From contig JALWPO010000331.1 in NCBI GenBank assembly GCA_026994965.1, positions 1 to 38,389 on the forward strand: a stretch of DNA of 38,389 bases. Direction: 5' to 3'. Positions 1,896-38,389 of this stretch are shown piece by piece (position 1 is the stretch's first letter; every line of letters starts with the position of its first letter). Under the pieces are notes generated by a model. It was not told the origin of the DNA, made no database searches, and saw only the letters and a program-made list of their open reading frames with translations. A program made the translations under genes and the position numbers. The DNA is from Mariprofundaceae bacterium. Its GTDB lineage: Bacteria; Pseudomonadota; Zetaproteobacteria; Mariprofundales; Mariprofundaceae.

Positions 1896-4739
1896 TTAAC
1901 TTTTCCCAATCACAATCAACTCCACAATACTATCACGATGCTGTAGCCATGATTGTCTGGATACAGGATTACCAAATGGATTAAGCACAATTTGAAACTG
2001 CCTTAAGCATGAAAAATCTTCTTCTCGCGGAAAGATTCTGCGAATTGTATCTTGGACAGGGTCAGACCAAATAAAACTATCCTTTAAGCGATATCCAATC
2101 CAAACATAACCTTGCGCGAGTAAACTTGCGAAAAGATTCTCTGCATTTTCAGGTAATACTTGCCCCACATGAAGCGCAAATAAATTCATATTATCACTTT
2201 CACCAACATCACCCATTAAATCATCAATACTATGCCTTAGCACACGCTGTAATTCATATGAACCTTCATTCTCTGATGCATACATATGAAAACTGGTATG
2301 TGCCAAATAGGTACCATAAAACTCATCAGGCACAGTAACATGAATCTCCCATGGAAAATCAAACCTCTCCAATTCTTGCTGCAACAAACGCGCTTGCTCT
2401 CGATCATCCATCACAGGGAAAATATCTGGATTACCATCTTGCTCATGAACAATCGTGACCAAATGCGAAAGTACTGTTGAAATGCCAGCATAGCCCTGTG
2501 CTTTAGCACGTAAAGGACGCGATAAAAGAATACGTTCTGCTTTTTGAACATACGGGCGTAAAAAATTCATATCTGTGAAATTCCAGCGTACAACTTCCGC
2601 TTGAATACGCTCAGAAGCGCCTGGGGTTTCTGCACACCGACGTTGTAGGTATGCCATCTGACTTTCCATCTCCTCCTGAGTTAAATCATCAATCAGCGTT
2701 ACATACACCATATCAAATTCATCTAATAAACGTTGGAGCAAGAGTGGTAAACTTCCTATCCAACCTGTAATCAGTAAATTCAATGATTTTCCATGTAATA
2801 ATGGCTTAATACCTGTGGTATCAAGATTATTCTTAGGCGCTTGCAATGCATGCAATTGTTTGATGGTGTAAAAGGTTTCAGCATGCAGAGCATTGGCGTT
2901 CATCGCTATACCAAGCAAGGATGGAACAACCATGGGTATATCCAATGCATCAAGGTCAGAGAGTGGATACACACTGCCTTTTTCATCCACCAATGCCACC
3001 AAAATAACGCCTCTAAGTAATAACCTTGATGCCAATGTGATAAGATTCATCTTTTGCGCTTGATCAGGTAACGATAATGTAAGTACCCCATCAGAGGATT
3101 CCAACACACCACCCCATTCAGCTACTTGTAATGATGATTCTTCGGTTCGCTCTGGAATCATCAAGCGCTCCATCACCTGATCAAAATCACGATATACCAG
3201 AATATTGCGAAATATATTAGCCCGCACATCGGCTTGGGAATGCACTACCGTTGGTTTATTATAAAAATCTTTGTTATCCCAACCAATTTGCAGCATATGA
3301 TGATGTGAATCCAAATGGGGATGCGCCATCCCTGGTGTTGCGTAATTAATATAAATATCTGGATTGACTTTACGAATCGCAATCAATGAAAATGTTGCCA
3401 ACGCGAGATTATCTGCACTGCTATGCCCATCAGGTATAGATACAATCGCTTGCCTTGCATGCTTTAAATTAACACGTTCCAAGGCTGACACCTCTTCCAA
3501 ATGTCCATACCGATAAGATACCCAAGAATGCTCAATAAGCTCTTTAGGCATTTCCTCTTGATTATGAAGAATCACCAGTTTCAGTTTGGAAAAACTTCTT
3601 TCAGATATAGTTTTTAATTGTGATAAAATAAATGGTGCTACTGATGACCAACCCAACATGACCATATGATTAGTGATATTCAAACGCTCATTACGCAATT
3701 TTGCCATCAATCCAGATACAATACTGGCACCAATACCAATAAAAAATGCAAAAATAAATACGCCTGTGATAACAGCAACAACAGAGAAAATAGCGATTTC
3801 TGTATTTTCTGGATAAAAGATAGAGTTGCCAGGATCTGTGAATAAGCGAAATGAAAACCAAATCGGCGCCAACATACCTTTATCTGCTGCATCAATACCA
3901 CCATTCTGGTCATAATCAAAGGAGCCCATAGTGTAATGTCCAAACACTCCACCACCAATGGATAATACTGCTAACAGTAATACAATCAGGTTAATTTCTT
4001 GCATAAACTGACCTTCTCGCATCACTTCTTTTAAGTTACGAATAATCACCATCCAAGGTCTGAGTAGGCGAATCAATCGTAACATACGCAATGCGCCGCC
4101 ATATGGAATCACAGCAAAGGCAGGAACCATCACAATGGTAGCAATCAAATCAATGCCCCAAAATATCCATTCAGATATTTTATCTTTTTTACTTTCAAAT
4201 TGAATATTTCGCATAATCAAAAAGCGAATCGCCAATTCCACACTGAAGAAAATAATCGCAATCCACATCAATGTATCTTGCGCAAAGAAGGAAAGTAAAA
4301 TAATCAATGATATAAGCATGCCATAGGTGGGTGAATACATGGCACTTTGCAAATCTATATAACGGAACATGCGCAAGGTACGCAATAAATATACAGCTCG
4401 AATCAAGCGTGCTGCAGCCAAATTTTCGCCATCCAGTGGAATATTAAAAATAGTAATCAATAATGATGCAATACCAATCATATCAAGCACTAAAAACAAA
4501 GCGTCAATTTTTTGATTTAATGATGAGCGATAAGGATTGGTTCGCCGCTTATTGAGCATAATCGCAAGTCGTAACCCCAGTTCCATACAAAAGAATAAAA
4601 ACAATGCTGCTGCCAAAATACGATTATGCGTAAAGGATAAAGCAATCAAGCCCATCATCATAAAGCCAAACCGTGGATGCATCAGCACCCATTCCATATG
4701 ATGATAAAACAATGCGCGATCACTAAAAACAGATTTCAT
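1896..4739 (-). CDS. CASTOR/POLLUX-like ion channel with two N-terminal voltage-sensor-like domains, EF-hand turret and cytosolic RCK-like region
   Basis: Two S4-like arginine repeats; pore TDPGN resembling CASTOR/POLLUX ADxGN; NHMVMLGWSS resembling NHTLILGWSD at start of the cytosolic domain; 947 aa. Confidence 0.75.
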   Translation of the reverse strand: MKSVFSDRALFYHHMEWVLMHPRFGFMMMGLIALSFTHNRILAAALFLFFCMELGLRLAIMLNKRRTNPYRSSLNQKIDALFLVLDMIGIASLLITIFNIPLDGENLAAARLIRAVYLLRTLRMFRYIDLQSAMYSPTYGMLISLIILLSFFAQDTLMWIAIIFFSVELAIRFLIMRNIQFESKKDKISEWIFWGIDLIATIVMVPAFAVIPYGGALRMLRLIRLLRPWMVIIRNLKEVMREGQFMQEINLIVLLLAVLSIGGGVFGHYTMGSFDYDQNGGIDAADKGMLAPIWFSFRLFTDPGNSIFYPENTEIAIFSVVAVITGVFIFAFFIGIGASIVSGLMAKLRNERLNITNHMVMLGWSSVAPFILSQLKTISERSFSKLKLVILHNQEEMPKELIEHSWVSYRYGHLEEVSALERVNLKHARQAIVSIPDGHSSADNLALATFSLIAIRKVNPDIYINYATPGMAHPHLDSHHHMLQIGWDNKDFYNKPTVVHSQADVRANIFRNILVYRDFDQVMERLMIPERTEESSLQVAEWGGVLESSDGVLTLSLPDQAQKMNLITLASRLLLRGVILVALVDEKGSVYPLSDLDALDIPMVVPSLLGIAMNANALHAETFYTIKQLHALQAPKNNLDTTGIKPLLHGKSLNLLITGWIGSLPLLLQRLLDEFDMVYVTLIDDLTQEEMESQMAYLQRRCAETPGASERIQAEVVRWNFTDMNFLRPYVQKAERILLSRPLRAKAQGYAGISTVLSHLVTIVHEQDGNPDIFPVMDDREQARLLQQELERFDFPWEIHVTVPDEFYGTYLAHTSFHMYASENEGSYELQRVLRHSIDDLMGDVGESDNMNLFALHVGQVLPENAENLFASLLAQGYVWIGYRLKDSFIWSDPVQDTIRRIFPREEDFSCLRQFQIVLNPFGNPVSRQSWLQHRDSIVELIVIGKS

Positions 4740-4865
4740 ACAAGCCCCAATATCCCATAAATTATCTTTATGGGGTTTGTAGCAGGATTAATGCCATATC
4801 AATTGAGCAAGTAAGGGTATTTCTTAGTAATACGGATTGCAGAATAAAGCATTGAAAAATAAAGG

Positions 4866-5771
4866 TTAACTGTGCTCGGTTGTTTTGATAAGTATATCAC
4901 CTAACAAACGAAACTCATCAGCACGTGCAGAGCCTTTGCGCCAAGCAAGCCCAATTTGACGGTGCATATGTTGGGGAAGTTTTAGAAGTGATATATTGGA
5001 ATCTTTTACCATCAAGGAATTTTTTGCCATTTCAGGAATAAAAGTGACGCCCAAATCACTAGCTACCATTTGTAATAACGTCTGCAGGCTGGTGGCAGCA
5101 AAGCGACTGATTTGCTCTAAAGAGCGCAACTGACATGCCTCTAAAGCATGATCCCGCAAGCAATGCCCATCATCCAGCAGCAGAAGACTTTCTTTAGGCA
5201 GATTTTGAATATCAAATGCATTCACATCACCTTGAAACCATTTGGAATGATGATGATATGCCAATAAAAATGCATCCTCAAAGAGTGTGATGCTTTCCAC
5301 ACCCTTTAAATCAAAAGGCAAAGCAACCAAAATAACATCCAGCCTTCCCGCTAAAAGCTGCTCATGCACAACATGGGTTTTATCCTCACGCAAATAAAGC
5401 TGTAAATTGGGGTGCTCCCGTAGCAATTTAGGCATAAATTCAGGCAATACAAAAGGCGCAATACTGGGAATCACCCCCAAAGTGATTTTGCCACTCAACG
5501 GCTCTTGGCTACCTGAAGCTAATTGCATCAAGCTATCCAATTCAGATGTACAAAGCCTAGCTTGGCGCACAATAGATAATCCAATATCTGTGAACACCAC
5601 TTGTTTATTGGTTCTATCCACCAATTGTACGCGTAGTTTATTTTCCAGCTCTTTAATAGCTGTGCTGAATGCCGATTGTGAGATATGACAGGCTTTGGCA
5701 GCTTGCCCAAAATGTTTATATTCATCCAACATAATAAGGCATTGTAATTGTTTTATGGTAGGGTATAGCAT
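4866..5771 (-). CDS. oxyR: OxyR-type LysR family hydrogen peroxide regulator
   Basis: LysR HTH (FGQAAKACHISQSAFSTAIKELE) and GHCLRDHALEAC with the 9-residue C199/C208 spacing; start chosen at MLYPTIKQLQ. Confidence 0.85.
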   Translation of the reverse strand: MLYPTIKQLQCLIMLDEYKHFGQAAKACHISQSAFSTAIKELENKLRVQLVDRTNKQVVFTDIGLSIVRQARLCTSELDSLMQLASGSQEPLSGKITLGVIPSIAPFVLPEFMPKLLREHPNLQLYLREDKTHVVHEQLLAGRLDVILVALPFDLKGVESITLFEDAFLLAYHHHSKWFQGDVNAFDIQNLPKESLLLLDDGHCLRDHALEACQLRSLEQISRFAATSLQTLLQMVASDLGVTFIPEMAKNSLMVKDSNISLLKLPQHMHRQIGLAWRKGSARADEFRLLGDILIKTTEHS

Positions 5772-28741: not shown

Positions 28742-29281
28742 TCACTTCTTTTTCGCATACTTCGGGCGGAAGATTTTACATTGACTTGCATCTACTTCCA
28801 AATAAGGACCTTCAAGCAAATCAATACAATACGGCACGGCAGGGAATACAGCATTCAAGCAATCATCAATAGCAGAAGGTTTACCTGGCAAGTTGATGAT
28901 TAAAGCCTTGCCACGAATACCTGCTGTTTGTCGGGATAAAATCGCGGTCGGCACAAATTTTAATGATTCTTGACGCATCAACTCGCCAAAACCCGGCATC
29001 ATCTTTTTACACACAGCTTCAGTGGCTTCAGGGGTCACATCACGCACCGCGGGGCCTGTGCCCCCTGTGGTGACAATCAAACAGCAACCCTCATCATCAG
29101 CAAGTGCTTTGAGTGTATCTTCTATACCAGCCTGCTCATCAGGAATCACCCGAGATACCAATTCCCATTTCGATGATAAAACACGTTCAAACCATGCCAA
29201 CATGGCAGGGCCACCTAGGTCTTCATACTCACCACGGCTTGCTCTGTCTGATACCGTTACAAATCCAATTTTCGCTTTCAT
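28742..29281 (-). CDS. mog: MogA/MoaB family molybdenum cofactor biosynthesis protein
   Basis: FVTVSDRASRGEYEDLGGPAM, TTGGTGPAVRDVTPEA; start at MKAKIGFV, since the longer ORF runs into a repeat. Confidence 0.9.
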   Translation of the reverse strand: MKAKIGFVTVSDRASRGEYEDLGGPAMLAWFERVLSSKWELVSRVIPDEQAGIEDTLKALADDEGCCLIVTTGGTGPAVRDVTPEATEAVCKKMMPGFGELMRQESLKFVPTAILSRQTAGIRGKALIINLPGKPSAIDDCLNAVFPAVPYCIDLLEGPYLEVDASQCKIFRPKYAKKK

Positions 29282-29296
29282 ATTTACCCTTCTTGC

Positions 29297-29360
29297 GTCA
29301 TTCCCGCGAAGGCGGGAATCCATCATTGAAGTCGTGGATACCCGTCTGCACGGGTATGAC
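29297..29360. repeat. REPIN-like repeat doublet (family A), one arm diverged
   Basis: GTCATTCCCGCGAAGGCGGGAATCCA (29297-29322) and inverted TGGATACCCGTCTGCACGGGTATGAC (29335-29360). Confidence 0.8.
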
Positions 29361-29368
29361 AGAATTAT

Positions 29369-30613
29369 TTACCCAAAACTCTCATTTTGAAAATTCATAC
29401 CCTGCAATAATTGCACCTGCACTTCATCGCCTGCTTTTAACCCTTCTGACTGCTCAGGCACAGCCACAAAACCTTCTGCAACAGCCATACTCATCAACAC
29501 ACCACTGCCCTGCGTGCCTGTGGAAGTGACCGTGTAACCTTGCTCACCCTGACCCAACACAACCCGAACAAAATGGGCTCTGCCTGCCCTATCTTTGATG
29601 TCATGGGTAAGCTTTGCGCTGATGGTTCTGCGATGCAGTTTTTGAAAACCCATCATCCGCCTAAGCGCAGGTGAGACAAACTGCTCAAAACATACCATGC
29701 TGGATACAGGGTTACCCGGCAGCCCAAACACCGCACAACCTGATTCACTCGTACCAAAGGCCAGCGGATGCCCTGGGCGCATGGCCACACGCCAAAAGTG
29801 CATGGTAATACCCAAAGTTTCTAAAGTTGGGCGTACAAAATCATGATGCCCCACCGATACGCCACCACTGGCAAGCAGCACATCATATTTCAGCCCTTCA
29901 GCCAGCTTCGCTTTCAATTCAATCGGATTATCCCGCGCAATGCCCAGCAGTTTGGCTTCAATGCCCAAAGCTTTGCACTGCGCATACAGGGCATGGGAAT
30001 TGGCATCAGGGATTTTATGCGCGTCCACAGCCTCATCCAATCCTTCAAGCTCATCACCCGTGGACAAAATCGCCACGCTGGGTTTGGCAAACACTGGCAC
30101 TTGCTTTTGCTTCACCATCGCCAAAATCGCCAGCACCCCTGGCGTAATCGCCGTGCCCTTGGAAAGCACGGTTTTACCATCCATCAGGTTTTCACCCAAA
30201 GGCCTGATATTTGCACCTTGCTTGGGTGGCGTGAGGATTAAAACGCCATCCCCATCTTCTTGGGTATCTTCCACCCGAATCACCGTATCCACGCCCTGCG
30301 GCGTTGGCGCACCCGTCATGATTCTAGCCGCCCTTCCCTGCAACACCTTAATCGTTGGCATTTGCCCAGCGCGAATATCATCCACCACTTTCAGTCGCAC
30401 TGGGTTTTCAGAGCTGGCATCCTGAATATCGGCAAAGCGCACGGCATAACCATCCATTGCCGAGACATCATACGGCGGATGATTGCGATTTGCCGCCACA
30501 TCTTCAGCCAACACGCGGTTAAGTGAATCATGCAAAGCCACATGCTCAACATCTTTGGTTTGAACATGTTTTAGCACCTCTGCCAAAGCATCGGGGACTG
30601 ATAAATAATTCAT
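29369..30613 (-). CDS. moeA: Molybdopterin molybdenumtransferase MoeA
   Basis: DVSAMDGYAVR, RIMTGAPTPQGVDTVIRVED, SGGVSVGHHDFV. Confidence 0.95.
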   Translation of the reverse strand: MNYLSVPDALAEVLKHVQTKDVEHVALHDSLNRVLAEDVAANRNHPPYDVSAMDGYAVRFADIQDASSENPVRLKVVDDIRAGQMPTIKVLQGRAARIMTGAPTPQGVDTVIRVEDTQEDGDGVLILTPPKQGANIRPLGENLMDGKTVLSKGTAITPGVLAILAMVKQKQVPVFAKPSVAILSTGDELEGLDEAVDAHKIPDANSHALYAQCKALGIEAKLLGIARDNPIELKAKLAEGLKYDVLLASGGVSVGHHDFVRPTLETLGITMHFWRVAMRPGHPLAFGTSESGCAVFGLPGNPVSSMVCFEQFVSPALRRMMGFQKLHRRTISAKLTHDIKDRAGRAHFVRVVLGQGEQGYTVTSTGTQGSGVLMSMAVAEGFVAVPEQSEGLKAGDEVQVQLLQGMNFQNESFG

Positions 30614-31206
30614 GACTTGCTCCATTGCTGCACATCCGCAGTCGTATTTAAGCTGACCAAACTACGCAGCTCGGCATCATACAAACGCGCTTCTTGTTCG
30701 GGAATCAAATATGTATTCAGCGTTTCCAACAAGCATTTCAAACTTCGCTTATCTTGCTTAATATGCTGTTGCATCGCAGGCAAGGTTTGGCGATGATAAA
30801 AGCAACACAAAGGTTGCGCCATACCACCCACATGCAAAGCCACAGCATCATACCCTGCTCGATGTTTCGCCATATGTTTCAGCAAATCCGCTGAAATAAA
30901 CGGCATATCCACACCCACCACAAACAACCAATCCGTATCCACAGCTTCAAATGCGGCAACAATGCCCATCATGGGCGCTCTATGCTCGCTATCATCCAAC
31001 ACTTGCGGCAATAGCGTATCATCTCGCTTTTGTCGTGTACTCACCACCACATGCTCAAACAGCGGCGTTAAGCGTTGCTCTGCCCTGGCCAAAAGCGTTT
31101 GCCCTTCAAATATCACTGAAGCCTTATCCTGCCCCATGCGTTTGGACTGCCCACCTGCAAGTATCACTGCGGCGCAATGTTGGATACAAGTATTATGCTG
31201 ATTCAT
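30610..31206 (-). CDS. mobA: Molybdenum cofactor guanylyltransferase MobA
   Basis: AVILAGGQSKRMGQDKA; ATG at 31206. Confidence 0.92.
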   Translation of the reverse strand: MNQHNTCIQHCAAVILAGGQSKRMGQDKASVIFEGQTLLARAEQRLTPLFEHVVVSTRQKRDDTLLPQVLDDSEHRAPMMGIVAAFEAVDTDWLFVVGVDMPFISADLLKHMAKHRAGYDAVALHVGGMAQPLCCFYHRQTLPAMQQHIKQDKRSLKCLLETLNTYLIPEQEARLYDAELRSLVSLNTTADVQQWSKS

Positions 31207-31231
31207 TATCAAAGCACAGGATAGAAAACAC

Positions 31232-31528
31232 TCAATGCAAAGTTTCCCATAAATCCTGCCAATTAACATTTTCTTTTTCAATCAAGTTGATTTTCCACGC
31301 CCTATTCCATTTCTTCATTTGTTTTTCACGCAAAATAGCCGACTCCATACTCTCATGCATCTCATAATACACCAACTTATGCACATGATACTTATCCGTA
31401 AAACCACGAACCAAACCTTGCTTATGCTGCCATATACGTTGAATCAAGTGGCTAGTCACACCAATATATAATGTACCTCTTTTTCGGCTTGCAAGTATAT
31501 ACACACAGGGTTGTTTAGTTCTGGTCAT
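31232..31528 (-). CDS. GIY-YIG nuclease superfamily protein
   Basis: VYILASRKRGTLYIGVTSHLIQRIWQHK..REKQMKKWNRAWKINLIE. Confidence 0.9.
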   Translation of the reverse strand: MTRTKQPCVYILASRKRGTLYIGVTSHLIQRIWQHKQGLVRGFTDKYHVHKLVYYEMHESMESAILREKQMKKWNRAWKINLIEKENVNWQDLWETLH

Positions 31529-31535
31529 ATTATGA

Positions 31536-31633
31536 TGGATTCCCGCCTTCGCGGGAATGACATATGATGTACATGGTTAATCTGATAAACATGAGCGGTA
31601 ACAACTCGTCATTCCCGCGAAGGCGGGAATCCA
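31536..31633. repeat. REPIN-like repeat doublet (family A), perfect inverted arms
   Basis: TGGATTCCCGCCTTCGCGGGAATGAC (31536-31561) and GTCATTCCCGCGAAGGCGGGAATCCA (31608-31633). Confidence 0.88.
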
Positions 31634-31637
31634 TGAT

Positions 31638-32144
31638 TTACAATACTTTATCACGCTTTAACCAATCCAGTATAAAAGTTGCGACTTGCTGCATATCATT
31701 CAAATCAAGCTTGGGTATATTCACATGCAAATCTTGCATATCCGTAACCACAGCAAGCAGTTCAGATGGGTTACATCTCATATCCGCCGAGCGTGCTTCT
31801 CGCACCACTTCAATCTTAGCGCAAGGCATAGACGCGTAACCTTCCACCAACACCAAATCGGCATGAGGGAAATACGCATCTGCCATCTCTTGTGGGCTTA
31901 ATGGCTTTTGAACATTCGCCACCATCAATAACTGTTCAGGGCCAACCAGAAGCGAGCCTTTAGCCCCTGCATGTTTATGTCGCCAGCTATCCTTGCCCGG
32001 TGTATCCATCTCAGGTTGATGGTGCGAATGTTTAATGGTGCAAACATCCAAACCCTCTACCGAAAGGGCTGCAATTAGCTTTTCCATCAGCATGGTTTTA
32101 CCCGAATTGGAAAAGCCGACAATGGCTAAAACTGGAGCACTCAT
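31638..32144 (-). CDS. mobB: Molybdopterin-guanine dinucleotide biosynthesis protein MobB
   Basis: AIVGFSNSGKTMLMEKLI P-loop, TIKHSHHQPEMDTPGKDSWRHKHAGA; start at MSAPVLAI. Confidence 0.92.
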   Translation of the reverse strand: MSAPVLAIVGFSNSGKTMLMEKLIAALSVEGLDVCTIKHSHHQPEMDTPGKDSWRHKHAGAKGSLLVGPEQLLMVANVQKPLSPQEMADAYFPHADLVLVEGYASMPCAKIEVVREARSADMRCNPSELLAVVTDMQDLHVNIPKLDLNDMQQVATFILDWLKRDKVL

Positions 32145-32623
32145 GGGTGCTGTGTCACCCAAGCATCACCATCAGGGGTCACTTCTTTTTTCCAGATAGG
32201 TACATGCTGTTTTAACGTATCAATAATCCACTCACACGCTTCAAATGCAGGTTTACGGTGCTCAGCCCCCACCACAATCAACACAATCTGGTCGCCTGCA
32301 TGTACCGTGGTGACACGGTGAACGATTCGCACATCTATAATATCGAATGCTTTCAAAGCCTCATCACGCAAACTTTGCATAGCAGCTTCCGCCATCCCTG
32401 CATATTGCTCAAATTCAATCGAAAACACATCACGGCCTTCTGAGAAATCACGCGCGCAACCCAAAAAGGTCACAATACCGCCCATACGCTGCGAAGTTTT
32501 CCGAAGTGCAGTCACTTCTTCTTCCACAGAAAAATCTTGCTCCTGAATACGAACCGCATCCCTATTTCCTCCTCGCCCTTTTAAGGGAGAGGGTTGGGGT
32601 GAGGGTGTTGCCATGTCACTCAT
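32141..32623 (-). CDS. moaE: Molybdopterin synthase catalytic subunit MoaE, with repeat-derived N-terminal segment
   Basis: GGIVTFLGCARD, EHRKPAFEACEWIIDTLKQHVPIWKKE. Confidence 0.93.
   Translation of the reverse strand: MSDMATPSPQPSPLKGRGGNRDAVRIQEQDFSVEEEVTALRKTSQRMGGIVTFLGCARDFSEGRDVFSIEFEQYAGMAEAAMQSLRDEALKAFDIIDVRIVHRVTTVHAGDQIVLIVVGAEHRKPAFEACEWIIDTLKQHVPIWKKEVTPDGDAWVTQHP
32569..32607. repeat. Dispersed repeat (family B) inside the moaE 5' coding region
   Basis: cctcgcccttttaagggagagggttggggtgagggtg; encodes TPSPQPSPLKGRGG in frame. Confidence 0.75.
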
Positions 32624-32625
32624 AT

Positions 32626-32847
32626 TTACCCACCTGAAAACGGCGGCATCATCGCCACTTCATCGTCACCTTGCACAATATAATCCATATCCTGAATCTG
32701 CTCTTGGTTCACCGCCACCAATAAAGGCTGAATATCCGCGCATCCAAGCTGCGCAATTAATTCCTCCAGAGAAAGACCTGCCTGAGCATCAACACTGCGT
32801 TTACCGAGCTTATCTGCTACTGCACCGAAAAAGAGAACTTTAACCAT
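32626..32847 (-). CDS. moaD: Molybdopterin synthase sulfur carrier subunit MoaD
   Basis: Small ubiquitin-like protein with C-terminal FSGG; adjacent to moaE. Confidence 0.9.
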   Translation of the reverse strand: MVKVLFFGAVADKLGKRSVDAQAGLSLEELIAQLGCADIQPLLVAVNQEQIQDMDYIVQGDDEVAMMPPFSGG

Positions 32848-32853
32848 GCCCTT

Positions 32854-33024
32854 TTAAACCTTACGCCCTTGTCGCATTTCTCGCACATCATCATAAACAT
32901 CTTGCTGTTTACCTGCCCAAATACCAAAGAAATCATCTTTTGCGCAGTCTTTCAATGTTTCTACTGATTCCCTTGCCTGCTTATTATTTTCAGCTTTTCT
33001 TAATAGATTTTCTGTTTCATCCAT
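32854..33024 (-). CDS. Small antitoxin-like protein downstream of VapC
   Basis: 56 aa from ATG 33024, four bases after vapC stop; acidic tail DDFFGIWAGKQQDVYDDVREMRQGRKV. Confidence 0.45.
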   Translation of the reverse strand: MDETENLLRKAENNKQARESVETLKDCAKDDFFGIWAGKQQDVYDDVREMRQGRKV

Positions 33025-33028
33025 ATAC

Positions 33029-33421
33029 CTAAAACCAATCCTCAAGCACAAGTCCTTGCACCCGTGAAAACTCTTTCGTGTTATGTGTGACCAATACACC
33101 TTGGTTGGCAAGAGAAGTGCCTGCAATCAGGGTATCCATTGCGCCAATCGGCGTGCCTTTTGTTTCTAAGGTAGCGCGAATATTTGCTGCGGCTTTGGCT
33201 TCTTTTATGCCCATAGGTAATACCGTCAACAAGGCTATAAAATCATCCAATTGTTTGCGGCGTTTGCTGGTATCGTTTGACTTGGCAAGTCCAACTTCTA
33301 ATTCGTACAACACAACAGCAGGAATCGCTATATCTCGGGGTGCTGTCTGCAACAGCTTATCGGCGACATTGCCCATGCCTTTGAAATAGTAAATCAGCGT
33401 ATTGGTGTCGAGAACATACAT
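33029..33421 (-). CDS. vapC: VapC-type PIN domain ribonuclease toxin
   Basis: MYVLDTNTLIYYFKG...ELEVGL...GAMDTLIAG PIN acidic residues. Confidence 0.9.
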   Translation of the reverse strand: MYVLDTNTLIYYFKGMGNVADKLLQTAPRDIAIPAVVLYELEVGLAKSNDTSKRRKQLDDFIALLTVLPMGIKEAKAAANIRATLETKGTPIGAMDTLIAGTSLANQGVLVTHNTKEFSRVQGLVLEDWF

Positions 33422-33649
33422 TTAAAACGATTCACGTTGGCTATCTGCCACAGTTTGGCGAATATCTTCTGCCATCGGTAAATCTTGCCATTTGCCCGCC
33501 AACGCTTTGGCCTCTTGCGGCCATTCAGTACCTGCTTTTTCACGAATCACTTGCGCCACCCATTTGCTTTTGGAAACACCCGATGCCCTCACAGCGGCAT
33601 TCATATTCGCTTCTGTTTCATTATCAATATAAATCGTGACTTGACCCAT
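33422..33649 (-). CDS. VapB-like ribbon-helix-helix antitoxin
   Basis: MGQVTIYIDNETEANMNAAVRASGVSKSKWVAQVIREKA; adjacent to vapC. Confidence 0.8.
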   Translation of the reverse strand: MGQVTIYIDNETEANMNAAVRASGVSKSKWVAQVIREKAGTEWPQEAKALAGKWQDLPMAEDIRQTVADSQRESF

Positions 33650-33726
33650 GATACACCTCACTAATAACTAAAGTATATGTGCAAATATACTTGATTGTCA
33701 ATCTCATTACAGGCAAAGCCATGCCA

Positions 33727-33982
33727 TTATCCCTTATTTTTACGCGAGCCAGCAACCTTATACACATCACCATCTGCCCGCTTGCCAATCGTAATCACCC
33801 ACCCTTAATTTGCGTAAGCCCGCTAAACCCTTGCGCAACGGTGCGCCAAAGCTTTCAGGCTCGGTGACCAGTTTTTCATCAATCGCCTTGATAGCTCTTT
33901 TTGCCCTGCTTTTACCAATCCGCCTTAAATCCTTATCCACCTCTGGATGATACAAAACCTTCCATGTTTGCTTCATTCGCAA
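33727..33982 (-). pseudogene. RelE/ParE family toxin, frameshifted by internal deletion
   Basis: N-terminal RelE frame ends LRVGDYDWQAGRW*; another frame continues VITIGKRADGDVYKVAGSRKNKG*, a RelE-like C-terminus. Confidence 0.65.
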
Positions 33983-33983
33983 C

Positions 33984-34265
33984 TCATCCGTACTTACGCT
34001 TCATGTCCTCATGCACAGTCGCGGTCGCTGGGTCAAAGCTTTCCAACCTTTCACCAGCTATTTTTGCCAGTTGTAAATCTTCAATATCTTCTAACAGTGA
34101 TTCGTAAGCAGACAAAGACAGCAGCACAGCATTGGGCTGATTATTACGAACAATAACAAATTTATCATGCTTTCGCTCAGACAATTCGGTAAGGATTGAG
34201 CTAGTTTTTTTGGATAAGTCCGTTGCCGAAAGCATTTCACTGGGTGTAAATCTTGCAGTATTCAT
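33984..34265 (-). CDS. Type II antitoxin, Phd/YefM-RelB-like
   Basis: MNTARFTPSEMLSATDLSKKTSSILTELSERKHDKFVIVRNNQPNAVLLSLSAYESL. Confidence 0.85.
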   Translation of the reverse strand: MNTARFTPSEMLSATDLSKKTSSILTELSERKHDKFVIVRNNQPNAVLLSLSAYESLLEDIEDLQLAKIAGERLESFDPATATVHEDMKRKYG

Positions 34266-34277
34266 CGACATTCTCCT

Positions 34278-34296
34278 ATTATTATCCGATAATAAT
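34278..34296. promoter_or_regulatory. Palindromic operator candidate for the antitoxin operon
   Basis: ATTATTATC-C-GATAATAAT, perfect 9+1+9 palindrome just upstream of the antitoxin start. Confidence 0.6.
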
Positions 34297-34332
34297 CGTT
34301 TTATTAACGGAAAGTCAATGGTAAAATGAACA

Positions 34333-34806
34333 CTACCTCTTGAAGTCTCCCGACTTACCACCCGCCTTTTCTTCAAGTTGAATGTTAGTCAAACACATGC
34401 CTTTATCCACAGCTTTGCACATATCATAGATGGTGAGAAGCGCTGCACTAACGGCAGTTAAAGCTTCCATTTCCACGCCTGTTTTACCTTTGCATTTGAC
34501 TGATACTTCAACTTTTAAGCCACAGGTTTCCCTCAATTCTGAAAAGGACACATCAATACCCGACAGCATCAAAGGATGGCACATGGGAATCAAATCAGGT
34601 GTTTTTTTCGCGCCTATAATCGCTGCCACATCGGCAATAGCGAGCACATCACCTTTTTTAAGTTTACCTTGTTGGATATGCTGCAACGTGTTTTCTAGCA
34701 TATGAATTTCACCGCTAGCCATGGCAATACGCGTGGTGATTTCCTTGTCCGACACATCCACCATGCGCCCACACCCTGCTTGATTGAAATGGGTTAACTC
34801 ACTCAT
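34333..34806 (-). CDS. moaC: Cyclic pyranopterin monophosphate synthase MoaC
   Basis: [57 protein letters not shown]. Confidence 0.96.
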
Positions 34807-34822
34807 ACTTATTCACTCCTAA

Positions 34823-34881
34823 CCACGGATAAACACCGATAAACGCGGATATCACCTATGTTCATCTGCGTGCATCTGTGG
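34823..34881. repeat. Dispersed repeat (family D: CCACGGATAAACACCGATAAACGCGGAT...ATCTGCGTGCATCTGTGG)
   Basis: Imperfect inverted arms; overlaps 3' end of modC. Confidence 0.6.
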
Positions 34882-35527
34882 CGAACACTTTTGTGCTTGC
34901 GACGCTATTCATCAACTTTCCTTCACGCATACGCCAATGCTGCTGCGCCAATACTTTGGCATCCTCTGCATCATGGCTGACCATCAATACAGGAATATCC
35001 AAAGTTTGTTGTAAATCCTTTAATGCTTGCCGCAACCGCAATCGAATATCTGGGGCTTGGGCTGAAAAGGGCTCATCCAACAACAATAATGAAGGTTTGA
35101 TATACAATGCTCTAGCCAATGCTACCCGCTGCGCTTCACCTGTGGAAAGCATAGCTGGCTTGCGTTTAAGCAATGGACTGACTTCCAAAGCTTCACACAC
35201 TTGATTGAACCAAGCCGCATCACCATCCTTCACACCCAATGTGATATTGGCTTGTGCGTCCAACCACGGCAAAAGCACGGCATCACTCCACACAAAACCA
35301 ATGTTTCGCTGTTCAGTGGGCTTTACAAATCCAGCCGCACTATCCAGCCAAACATCACCAGCTATCTGCAATTGACCTTGGCAAGCTTCTAAACCTGCAA
35401 GACAACGCAACAAAGTGGTTTTGCCCGCGCCGTTCTCTCCTGAAATCACAATCACTTCATGGGCAAAATCAGCTTGTACGTCTAGGTTCAAACTGCCTAG
35501 CTTAGTTGTGATGCGAATATGATTCAT
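34862..35527 (-). CDS. modC: Molybdate ABC transporter ATP-binding protein ModC (short form)
   Basis: GENGAGKTTLLRCLAG, LSTGEAQRVALARAL, LLLDEPFS; 221 aa, follows modB. Confidence 0.9.
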   Translation of the reverse strand: MNHIRITTKLGSLNLDVQADFAHEVIVISGENGAGKTTLLRCLAGLEACQGQLQIAGDVWLDSAAGFVKPTEQRNIGFVWSDAVLLPWLDAQANITLGVKDGDAAWFNQVCEALEVSPLLKRKPAMLSTGEAQRVALARALYIKPSLLLLDEPFSAQAPDIRLRLRQALKDLQQTLDIPVLMVSHDAEDAKVLAQQHWRMREGKLMNSVASTKVFATDARR

Positions 35528-36189
35528 GAGCCAGCCACCAAGGGTTTACGATTGATGCTATACACCACGGATAACATGACGAATGATACAGCCAACAATA
35601 TCAAAGCAAGTTGCGCGGCTTCTTGTTGCTGCTGCATTTCCACCAGTTCAAACAGAGCAATGCTTGCCACTTTGGTTTCACCTGGAATCGAACCACCCAC
35701 CATCAGCACCACACCAAACTCACCCATGGTATGCGCAAATGAAAGTGCTGCGGCAACCAGCACACCACCCTTGGATGCGGGCAGGATGATATGACGCAGC
35801 ATTGGTTTGATACTCATACCCCGTGTTTTACCAAGTTCTAACCATGATTTCGGCACAGCACGAAATGCTTGCTGCATGGGCTGCACGGCAAAGGGCAACG
35901 AATACAACACCGAAGCAATCACCATGCCTGAGAATGAAAATGCCAACGAACTATCAAATACAGAAGCCCAAGCTGAACCCAGCCAAGAATCAGGAGCTAT
36001 CATCAAGAGTACATAATAACCCAATACCGTAGGCGGCAAAACCAAAGGTAGTGCGACAATCACTTCCAATACCGTACGCCCTTTAAACGAGACAAATGCC
36101 AACACATACGCCAAAGGCAAAGCTATCAGCAATAAAAGTAGTGTAGTGGTGAGCGCGAGTTGTAAAGATATGATTAAAGCATCAAGCAT
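35524..36189 (-). CDS. modB: Molybdate ABC transporter permease ModB
   Basis: LPLVLPPTVLGYYVLL, AHTMGEFGVVLMVGGSIPGET. Confidence 0.95.
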   Translation of the reverse strand: MLDALIISLQLALTTTLLLLLIALPLAYVLAFVSFKGRTVLEVIVALPLVLPPTVLGYYVLLMIAPDSWLGSAWASVFDSSLAFSFSGMVIASVLYSLPFAVQPMQQAFRAVPKSWLELGKTRGMSIKPMLRHIILPASKGGVLVAAALSFAHTMGEFGVVLMVGGSIPGETKVASIALFELVEMQQQQEAAQLALILLAVSFVMLSVVYSINRKPLVAGS

Positions 36190-36194
36190 AACTA

Positions 36195-36950
36195 TTACCT
36201 GTCATTCCCGCGAAGGCGGGAATCCAGTGATAAGGTAGTGTGGGATGTGGATTCCCGCCTTCGCGGGAATGACGCTGCTGGTAGTGGTGTATAAAAGTCT
36301 TTTGCTATGACTGTGTTTGATAGCAGAAAGACGGTGTACGGAATACGCGTTATGACAGCTTGCGCTGCTTGCACAGGCACAAACCCAGCATCCACCAAAC
36401 CTTGATTCACCATCATGGAAGCTTGCATGGCATTTTGCGCATACACAAGTTTAGGTGTGAGCTTTTCCCATAAACCAGCTTGCGCTAATACTTGCTTAGC
36501 AGCAGCACCAAAGGGTGCGGTTTGCGGATTGGCAATAGCGATTTTATGAATGTTAGGTTGCAGAAGCTCTTGCAAATCAGTGGTGAAACGATTACCAAAC
36601 TGAATCCCCAAATAACCATAACCCATAGCTTTGTTCGGATTATCCAAATCTATATGTTGTGAGCCTGCGGCAATGAATATATCAAACGGTGCACCTTGTT
36701 TGATTTGATTATATAAACGACCTGTAGAGCCTGATACCAAGCGCACAACATCATCATGCTTGGCTTCAAATTGCTTGCTGTATTGCATGGCTTGGGGATA
36801 AAAGCTGGATGCTACGGCGACTGTTAAAGTCTCGCTGGAAAAAGCAGGAAAACCACAGAGACACAGAGACACAAAGAACAGTATTGTTTTGATTTTTCTT
36901 TGTGCCTTGGTGTCTTGGTGGTGAATATTTACAGCCAATTTAGCCGCCAA
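36195..36950 (-). CDS. modA: Molybdate ABC transporter substrate-binding protein ModA, with repeat-derived N- and C-terminal ends
   Basis: LTVAVASSFYPQAMQYSKQFEAKHDDVVRLVSGSTGRLYNQIKQGAPFDIFIAAG; upstream of modBC. Confidence 0.85.
   Translation of the reverse strand: MAAKLAVNIHHQDTKAQRKIKTILFFVSLCLCGFPAFSSETLTVAVASSFYPQAMQYSKQFEAKHDDVVRLVSGSTGRLYNQIKQGAPFDIFIAAGSQHIDLDNPNKAMGYGYLGIQFGNRFTTDLQELLQPNIHKIAIANPQTAPFGAAAKQVLAQAGLWEKLTPKLVYAQNAMQASMMVNQGLVDAGFVPVQAAQAVITRIPYTVFLLSNTVIAKDFYTPLPAASFPRRRESTSHTTLSLDSRLRGNDR
36201..36273. repeat. REPIN-like repeat doublet (family A), perfect inverted arms
   Basis: GTCATTCCCGCGAAGGCGGGAATCCA (36201-36226) and TGGATTCCCGCCTTCGCGGGAATGAC (36248-36273), 21-bp loop. 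Confidence 0.9.
36853..36921. repeat. Dispersed palindromic repeat (family C: CCACAGAGACACAGAGACACAAAGAA...TTCTTTGTGCCTTGGTGTCTTGGTGG)
   Basis: Two 26-bp arms in inverted orientation with 5 mismatches; overlaps modA 5' coding region. Confidence 0.75.
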
Positions 36951-37974
36951 TATGAATCATGGAGCGTTTATCGGCATCAGCAGCAAAGGCATACGTACCG
37001 ATTTCAGGTTTGATGAGTGCCGAGCGGAGGAACACCGCACAAATATCATCATCGCTACCACCACGGCGAATCACATCACGTAAGTTCATATGCTTATCCT
37101 CTGGCAAACATGAACGAAGACCCCCGTCTGCCGTTAAACGCAGACGATTACAGCCTTCACAAAACCTGTCCGACATGGGCATGATAAACCCAACTTCACC
37201 TTTGCCATGTTTGAGCGGCAAATATCGCGCTGCCGTGTTACCAGTTTGCATGGGAGATATATCCACTCGCGCTTGCACATCATCTTGCGCCAACACATCC
37301 GCAATCGAAATATAATGTTTACCCCAATCCAAACCCTGCTTCATGGGCATCAGCTCAATAAATCGAATCGTTGCGCCCATAGCCGAAGCAAAATCAATCA
37401 ACGCAGCGACCTCATCATTGTTGATACCTTTCATCAACACGGTATTCAGTTTGATAGGAAAAAGACCTGCATCTTTAGCTGCTTGAATACCATCCAACAC
37501 AGGCTGAATATCGCTACCTGTGAGCTTCTTAAAACGCAAAGGATTGAGCGTATCCAAGCTGATATTGATGCGATTTAAGCCTGCATCTTTGAATGCTTCT
37601 GCATACTTTGCCAAGTAAGCCGCATTACTGGTCATCGCCAAATCGGTGATGCCATCTATGGCTGATAATTGCGCGACCAAATCAGGCAAATCTTTACGCA
37701 CCAAAGGCTCACCACCTGTAATCCGCACCTTGTTCACACCCAAGGATACGGCAACCTTCACAATGCGCGCAATCTCTTCAAAGCTTAAAATATGGGAGCG
37801 TGGCTCAGCTTGATAGGCATCGGCAGATGGCCTGCAATAATCACAACGCATATTGCATCTATCGGTGACTGAAATGCGCAAATAATTGAGCTTGCGCCCA
37901 AAAGAATCATGCAATTCTTGGCGTTTATTCAACGCTTTGCTTTGCGGATAAAACTTAATGGGCTGGGCGTTCAT
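36940..37974 (-). CDS. moaA: GTP 3',8-cyclase MoaA (radical SAM)
   Basis: LRISVTDRCNMRCDYCRP, TGGEPLVRKDL, C-terminal CxxC..C cluster; ATG at 37974 overlaps upstream stop. Confidence 0.96.
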   Translation of the reverse strand: MNAQPIKFYPQSKALNKRQELHDSFGRKLNYLRISVTDRCNMRCDYCRPSADAYQAEPRSHILSFEEIARIVKVAVSLGVNKVRITGGEPLVRKDLPDLVAQLSAIDGITDLAMTSNAAYLAKYAEAFKDAGLNRINISLDTLNPLRFKKLTGSDIQPVLDGIQAAKDAGLFPIKLNTVLMKGINNDEVAALIDFASAMGATIRFIELMPMKQGLDWGKHYISIADVLAQDDVQARVDISPMQTGNTAARYLPLKHGKGEVGFIMPMSDRFCEGCNRLRLTADGGLRSCLPEDKHMNLRDVIRRGGSDDDICAVFLRSALIKPEIGTYAFAADADKRSMIHIGG

Positions 37975-38389
37975 GAGCCAGACAATAGTCTTTTCATCTC
38001 CGGTATGCACGAGCCACATCCCGTACCTGCCATCGTACAACTTTTTAATTTTTCAATGGAATCTGAACCCGCCTCAATCGCAGCCTTAAGTTCAAGCTCT
38101 CCAACATTATTACAAGCACAAATCATCTTGCCCTTGGTATCATGTTTATCGATTGGCCCGCCTGGAGCGAGCAAATAAGGGCGCAATTCACCCACATCAC
38201 GACCTTCAAGCATGAGTTTACGAAGCCACTTCGCCTCATCCATATCACCGCCCACCCAACGCACGGCAACCAAGCGACCATCATTTAACCATGCCTTGCG
38301 ATAAATACCATGTTTGCGGTCAGCAAAGGTGAGCGTTTCAAACTGTTTACCCTGTTCCAACATTTGATCCAAACGTTTGTACTGTGCAT
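37971..38389 (-). CDS. C-terminal fragment of a molybdopterin nitrate reductase (NasA/NasC-like) with BFD-like [2Fe-2S] domain
   Basis: Frame open to window edge; MICACNNVGELELKAAIEAGSDSIEKLKSCTMAGTGCGSCIPEMKRLL with BFD-type cysteines. Confidence 0.7.
   Translation of the reverse strand, partial: AQYKRLDQMLEQGKQFETLTFADRKHGIYRKAWLNDGRLVAVRWVGGDMDEAKWLRKLMLEGRDVGELRPYLLAPGGPIDKHDTKGKMICACNNVGELELKAAIEAGSDSIEKLKSCTMAGTGCGSCIPEMKRLLSGS

Follow-up and report, generated by a model that had tools for sequence, protein, structure and literature searches.

A predicted family of ion channels with two voltage-sensor-like domains and a single pore, associated with flagellar and chemotaxis genes in Zetaproteobacteria

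A contig of 38,389 nucleotides from a Mariprofundaceae bacterium (JALWPO010000331.1; hereafter the window, meaning this whole stretch) encodes a membrane protein, P0001, that appears to carry two voltage-sensor-like domains ahead of one pore, which raises the questions of whether the subunit is really built in this way and what it does for the cell. An earlier note on this DNA had flagged positions 3600-4739, which cover only residues 1-380, the N-terminal part of the open reading frame (Table 1); all of the peptides it quoted are present in that frame. Each part of the channel is of a kind already known, and it is the combination that appears to be new; a literature search, which left many journals uncovered, returned neither a channel with two sensors and one pore nor any mention of this gene. 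Beyond what had been noted before, we describe a turret loop, a near restriction to one class, a flagellar and chemotaxis context, and a paralogous family. A subunit with two sensors could reveal whether both act, in series or in parallel, or whether one serves as a scaffold.

Architecture of the P0001 subunit

The anatomy of the channel, namely two sensors, a pore, and a gating ring, is near-certain as far as structure prediction and homology can make it so. An AlphaFold2 model that took a 76-sequence alignment as input (pLDDT 85.7, pTM 0.83) contains, in order, four helices, another four helices, S5, a pore helix, S6, and a long cytosolic double-RCK part, in agreement with the 4+4+2 layout, with the pore after the sensors, that the earlier note had inferred. 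That proposal would have failed had one block not adopted the four-helix fold; in the model, block 1 comprises helices at residues 22-34, 40-67, 74-97, and 107-127, and block 2 at residues 137-150, 156-178, 184-204, and 214-242. Together with S5 and S6, which flank the pore helix (residues 290-301), ten transmembrane helices and two sensors are predicted per subunit.

Table 1. Features of the channel gene in the window, and the family-B copy of the same genome (window positions unless a contig is named)
Feature	Position	Strand	Evidence or remark
Whole channel gene, P0001	1896..4739	-	947-residue ORF, stop codon included; tandem-VSD / pore / double-RCK
Voltage-sensor-like domain 1 (residues 22-127)	4359..4676	-	AlphaFold2 four helices; Nav/Kv profiles; invariant F50, E53, R57, D86
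S4-like helix, domain 1	4362..4409	-	R111, R114, R120, R123, R126; Y117 within series
Voltage-sensor-like domain 2 (residues 137-242)	4014..4331	-	AlphaFold2 four helices; bacterial Nav profile; PF00520 in two relatives
S4-like helix, domain 2	4059..4088	-	R218, R221, R224, R227
S5 (residues 245-270)	3930..4007	-	AlphaFold2
EF-hand/dockerin-like loop DYDQNGGIDAAD (residues 275-286), S5-pore turret	3882..3917	-	Residue pattern
Pore helix and filter TDPGN (residues 290-305)	3825..3872	-	Alignment with DPG/DAG filter of bacterial CASTOR/POLLUX proteins
S6 (residues 313-349)	3693..3803	-	AlphaFold2
RCK1 half of gating ring (residues 356-640)	2820..3674	-	hmmsearch to DMI1 and BK; PF22614; Foldseek
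RCK2 half of gating ring (residues 650-947)	1899..2792	-	AlphaFold2, Foldseek, profile comparison with bacterial PF06241 proteins
Family-B copy of the window's genome (L045/L129)	G000:C20:2234-5722		Core chemotaxis operon

Pfam and NCBIfam searches with P0001 alone returned almost nothing, and PF00520 (Ion_trans) was not listed at E 1. This family matched 5 of 36 relatives (best E 1.1e-9), and two relatives have matches above the cut-off that run from block 2 into the pore (E 1.7e-11 and 4.2e-11). A weak match of P0001 to SRP54 in the PDB was dismissed as chance. In hhalign profile comparisons the two blocks are homologous to each other (E 2e-12), and E is 0.08-0.23 when either is compared with the pore region. 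Independent profiles of bacterial Nav and Kv channels match block 1 at E 8.5e-6 and 5.6e-6, respectively, and block 2 at E 2e-5 and 8e-4, with reversed-profile controls at E 1.3e-4 to 0.03. Both profiles were built in-house; these E-values derive from small alignments and are rough, and because the controls reach 1.3e-4 the comparison of block 2 with Kv is not decisive by itself.

The residue pattern is stronger evidence for putative sensors than these E-values. The motif F-x2-E-x3-R in S2, an aspartate in S3, and the arginines of S4 are the charge-transfer residues of canonical voltage sensors. Block 1 has F50/E53/R57 in S2 and D86 in S3, block 2 has the corresponding F165/E168/R172 and D197, and each S4 carries arginines at every third position (Table 1). 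In family A, to which P0001 belongs, the sensor residues of both blocks are invariant in the 49-51 sequences with letters at those positions, the only exception being R227, which is lysine in two sequences; the S4 arginines of domain 1 are kept in 50 of 50 family-A and in nearly all family-B sequences (family B is the paralogue described below). Judged from the AlphaFold2 model, the profile comparisons, and this invariance, the predicted two-sensor pattern is far beyond chance, and the similar blocks and the S2, S3, and S4 residues to which the earlier note drew attention are borne out. With an S1-S4 sensor pattern followed by S5-P-S6, the protein fulfils the sequence and predicted-fold criteria of the voltage-gated ion channel superfamily, without current data.

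The remainder of the chain resembles CASTOR and POLLUX, as had been proposed, although only in part. Residues 241-947 align collinearly with bacterial PF06241 proteins over 547 columns (E 5e-17; reversed controls, E 0.05-0.6), with the DPG filter in register, and in Foldseek the ring superimposes on that of LjCASTOR with a TMt of 0.74 and an rmsd of 5.4. The RCK1 half also matches DMI1 and BK, and PF22614 (Slo-like_RCK) is found in 18 of the 36 relatives (best E 1.9e-4). The likeness to CASTOR/POLLUX stands for pore and ring, without a Pfam match: Castor_Poll_mid (PF06241) found no match in P0001, in the 36 relatives, or in the genome of the window (G000), and with the whole chain as Foldseek query Slo1 ranks first (E 3e-16). 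Because Castor_Poll_mid does not score and the whole chain is equally Slo1-like, the protein as modeled and aligned is best described as a sister architecture, Slo1-like as much as CASTOR-like, rather than as a member of CASTOR/POLLUX.

CASTOR, with the filter AD265(S/A)GNHA, is Ca2+-selective, and the mutation D265N abolishes its current (PMC6697748). Since the TD302PGN filter of P0001 resembles it, the pore is probably permeable to Ca2+ or to mixed cations, an inference by analogy without conduction data. D302-P303-G304-N305 is kept in most of family A, but one sub-clade (L039, L041, L042, L043, L071-L073, L085) has MAAGN in place of TDPGN, losing the filter aspartate, and is predicted to have altered selectivity or to be non-conducting. 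Most members of family B have lost the filter asparagine. Given these two changes, Ca2+ permeation need not extend to every paralogue. The DYDQNGGIDAAD loop, positioned after S5 and before the pore helix, fits the strict EF-hand/dockerin pattern D-x-[DNST]-x-[DNSG]-G-x5-[DE]. Among 51 family-A sequences, 37 show this pattern and 50 have the first aspartate of the loop, D275; among 24 family-B sequences, the pattern is found in 16 and the aspartate in all 24. In the other ORFs of the same loci the background is 3 occurrences in 208,267 residues. It is plausible that the loop faces the periplasmic side of the pore mouth and provides a Ca2+ input there; metal-binding data are lacking.

Distribution and genomic context

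A scan of genome contigs found close relatives only in the Zetaproteobacteria, a class of iron oxidizers from marine settings, in one uncultured proteobacterium, and on one contig labeled Deltaproteobacteria; those most similar to P0001, at up to 80% identity, come from Mariprofundus ferrooxydans and other Mariprofundaceae. The search with the family profile took in 399 Pseudomonadota genomes and 78 Zetaproteobacteria, with no other phyla covered, and a near restriction to the Zetaproteobacteria among sampled genomes, although apparent, is therefore not proven. Many further Nav- and Kv-type channels occur in this class besides the tandem-sensor family (L149-L155, L160, L168).

The link to motility is the best clue to function. 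Of 22 sampled family-A loci, 13 fall within a flagellar gene cluster, typically in the order fliF, fliG, fliH, fliI, fliJ, a motE-like gene, the channel, fliK, flgD, and flgE, and three more are near CheA or a methyl-accepting chemotaxis protein (MCP); the flagellar-operon form is the one found in Mariprofundus ferrooxydans PV-1, a member of the class whose genome has been sequenced. Of 78 Zetaproteobacterial genomes, 53 have both the channel and FliF and 20 have neither, so that the two agree in 73; three have FliF only and two the channel only (Fisher p 1.9e-13). The genomes are drafts of 56-100% completeness, and because congeneric genomes are related, some of the counts are not independent. 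The agreement holds inside genera, where none of 20,000 permutations reached it, and channel and flagella have been lost together repeatedly inside several genera. One genome (G168) with a broken channel remnant of 35 residues was scored as lacking the channel. The three genomes with FliF and no channel (G009, G044, and G100, of which the first two are single-contig) indicate that the channel is not required for flagella as such; they possibly have a different flagellar set-up.

Many genomes, including that of the window, also encode family B, a paralogue of about 1,100-1,670 residues with tandem-sensor, pore, and ring parts like those of family A. In all 18 loci its gene is preceded by one for an MCP, and in all 16 loci where sequence remains beyond it a receiver and CheA come next, succeeded by CheW, CheB, and CheR. 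Behind the ring, family B has a disordered linker and then a tail predicted, at moderate confidence, to form a helical hairpin and a short C-terminal helix (residues 1058-1090, 1096-1132, and 1153-1162); a DRVSQ-type DxxxQ motif is present in most tails with full sequence. The tail module occurs in one to several copies in relatives, with linkers such as EEVAEEVAEEVAE in L047. CheZ has a helical hairpin architecture and a DxxxQ motif (PMC7750401). If the moderate-confidence prediction holds, the two would be alike in their long hairpin, linker, and short C-terminal helix, and a DxxxQ motif and an operon with CheA and CheY-like receivers are also in common, but a sequence-profile match is absent: homology to CheZ by sequence was rejected, as hhalign gave E 0.21 against 0.02-0.03 for reversed controls. 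The similarity is one of predicted architecture and motif only. CheZ itself (PF04344) found no match above cut-off in 61 Zetaproteobacteria.

The copy in the window departs from this context. Its neighbors are convergent genes on one side and a LysR-type regulator on the other, at a distance from motility genes, and in the flagellar operon of its genome (contig C154) the motE-like gene adjoins the gene at the fliK position with no channel between them. In the tree, it falls among copies from the flagellar operons of another genus and shares 80% identity with one of these copies. One member of that genus has a channel 72% identical to the window copy, whereas its FliF and that of the window's genome share about 60% identity. 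The simplest reading of these comparisons is that the window copy was relocated, perhaps with lateral transfer. Its neighbors (a Crp/Fnr-type regulator, a rhodanese-like protein, the LysR regulator, and a di-haem peroxidase) were rejected as a clue to function, as relatives do not share them, and the neighbors of non-flagellar copies elsewhere, judged by eye, are mostly housekeeping-like, such as aminoacyl-tRNA synthetases, and give no functional lead. From the LysR-type gene to the channel gene (window 4740-4865) there is a short perfect inverted repeat, CCCATAAA...TTTATGGG, without a terminator in a consensus scan; no promoter- or terminator-like site was detected in window 4700-4900 by such a scan. 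By eye, translations of window 28742-38372 suggest a run of molybdenum-cofactor-like and molybdate-transport-like genes, within which toxin/antitoxin-like genes lie at 33029-33421 and 33984-34376.

Proposed function and its alternatives

We consider it most probable, at roughly 0.6, that family A is a tetrameric, two-sensor, voltage- and ligand-gated, probably Ca2+-permeable channel that serves flagellar motility. In each subunit, sensor 1 would precede sensor 2, which would adjoin the pore, and four subunits would form a cation channel with an acidic filter of the CASTOR type and a divalent-ion-binding loop at its periplasmic mouth. Opening would be set jointly by membrane potential and by a ligand that reaches the RCK ring from the cytosol, probably Ca2+ by analogy with CASTOR, with a possible contribution from periplasmic Ca2+, such that a change in membrane energization would produce a cation signal to the flagellar and chemotaxis machinery; in family B, the same sensor would be coupled directly to the CheA-CheY pathway through the tail. 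Residue conservation, the operon setting, and the shared occurrence with flagella are observed; the tetramer, conduction, ion selectivity, voltage and ligand gating, and the signaling step are inferred, with neither electrophysiology nor a tetramer model. Against a role in motility, the window copy is not beside motility genes, and the flagellar operon of its genome has no channel.

The setting of the window copy and the other non-flagellar contexts (L111, L121, L126-L128) would suit a cation channel, gated by voltage and ligand, whose task in motile cells is ion or osmotic homeostasis and which sends no signal, its operon position reflecting shared regulation, for example of cation supply or relief of hyperpolarization. 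NavBp offers a parallel to both readings: its role in motility and chemotaxis is a bacterial precedent for the motility channel, and it also serves pH homeostasis (Ito 2004, cited in PMC4225499). Repeated joint loss with flagella in several genera and the fixed position of the paralogue between MCP and receiver/CheA both speak against homeostasis alone, which we regard as unlikely. Less probable still is a non-conducting voltage sensor in which the channel fold is a transducer that shifts the conformation of ring or tail without ion flow: the MAAGN sub-clade without the filter aspartate could be of this type, as could family B, mostly without the filter asparagine and bearing a signaling-type tail, but retention of D302-P303-G304-N305 in most of family A, the window copy included, and the match of the pore to CASTOR/POLLUX speak against it.

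A further question, compatible with either the motility channel or the homeostasis alternative, is whether only one of the sensor-like blocks moves with voltage while the other is a scaffold, like S0 of BK but larger. Family B retains all charges of sensor 1 and has lost R224, R227, and F165 of sensor 2, and AlphaFold2 confidence is lower in the S4 of sensor 1 (pLDDT about 69-76); in family A, on the other hand, both sensors have all charge-transfer residues and four to five arginines, apart from the two R227K substitutions. Such a division of labor remains a serious possibility, to which we give rather less than even odds. Returning to the motility channel, its extension to a lineage-specific electrical input to swimming, with family A acting in the flagellar operon and the family-B tail acting on CheY, is speculative and somewhat unlikely. 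If true, membrane potential, and hence the energy yield of iron oxidation, would directly set flagellar behavior. The operon setting opens to testing an old question, namely whether bacteria steer by their own membrane energy through gated ion channels, and not through receptors alone.

Comparison with known channels

Among known systems, CASTOR/POLLUX/DMI1 and the bacterial PF06241 proteins share with the P0001 family a pore with a D-x-G filter (of the A/T-D-x-G-N type in CASTOR and P0001) and a double-RCK ring, in the same fold and order. They differ in the membrane part, as four transmembrane helices are predicted for CASTOR, in which no voltage sensor has been described (PMC6697748), whereas ten helices and two sensors are predicted for P0001. 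Outside the class, ORFs of about 685-747 residues score with both PF00520 and PF06241 (G034:C4:19740-21173, G041:C38:71957-73402, and G045:C11:126314-127750); apparently combining a single sensor with a CASTOR-type ring, they are possibly single-sensor cousins.

The Slo/BK channels (Slo1, Slo2.2), the top whole-chain Foldseek matches, likewise have a sensor, a pore, and two RCK domains per subunit. Slo1 has a single sensor plus S0, and a K+ filter, whereas P0001 is predicted to have two sensors, a CASTOR-type TDPGN filter in place of a TVGYG-type K+ filter, and an EF-hand-like turret loop. The voltage sensor is also shared with the bacterial Nav channels (NavBp, NaChBac), which form a separate family with a single sensor, another filter, and no RCK ring. 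More than one voltage sensor per chain is also found in two-pore channels and in four-domain Nav/Cav channels. In these, every sensor has its own pore unit, whereas in the P0001 family the two predicted sensors precede a single one.
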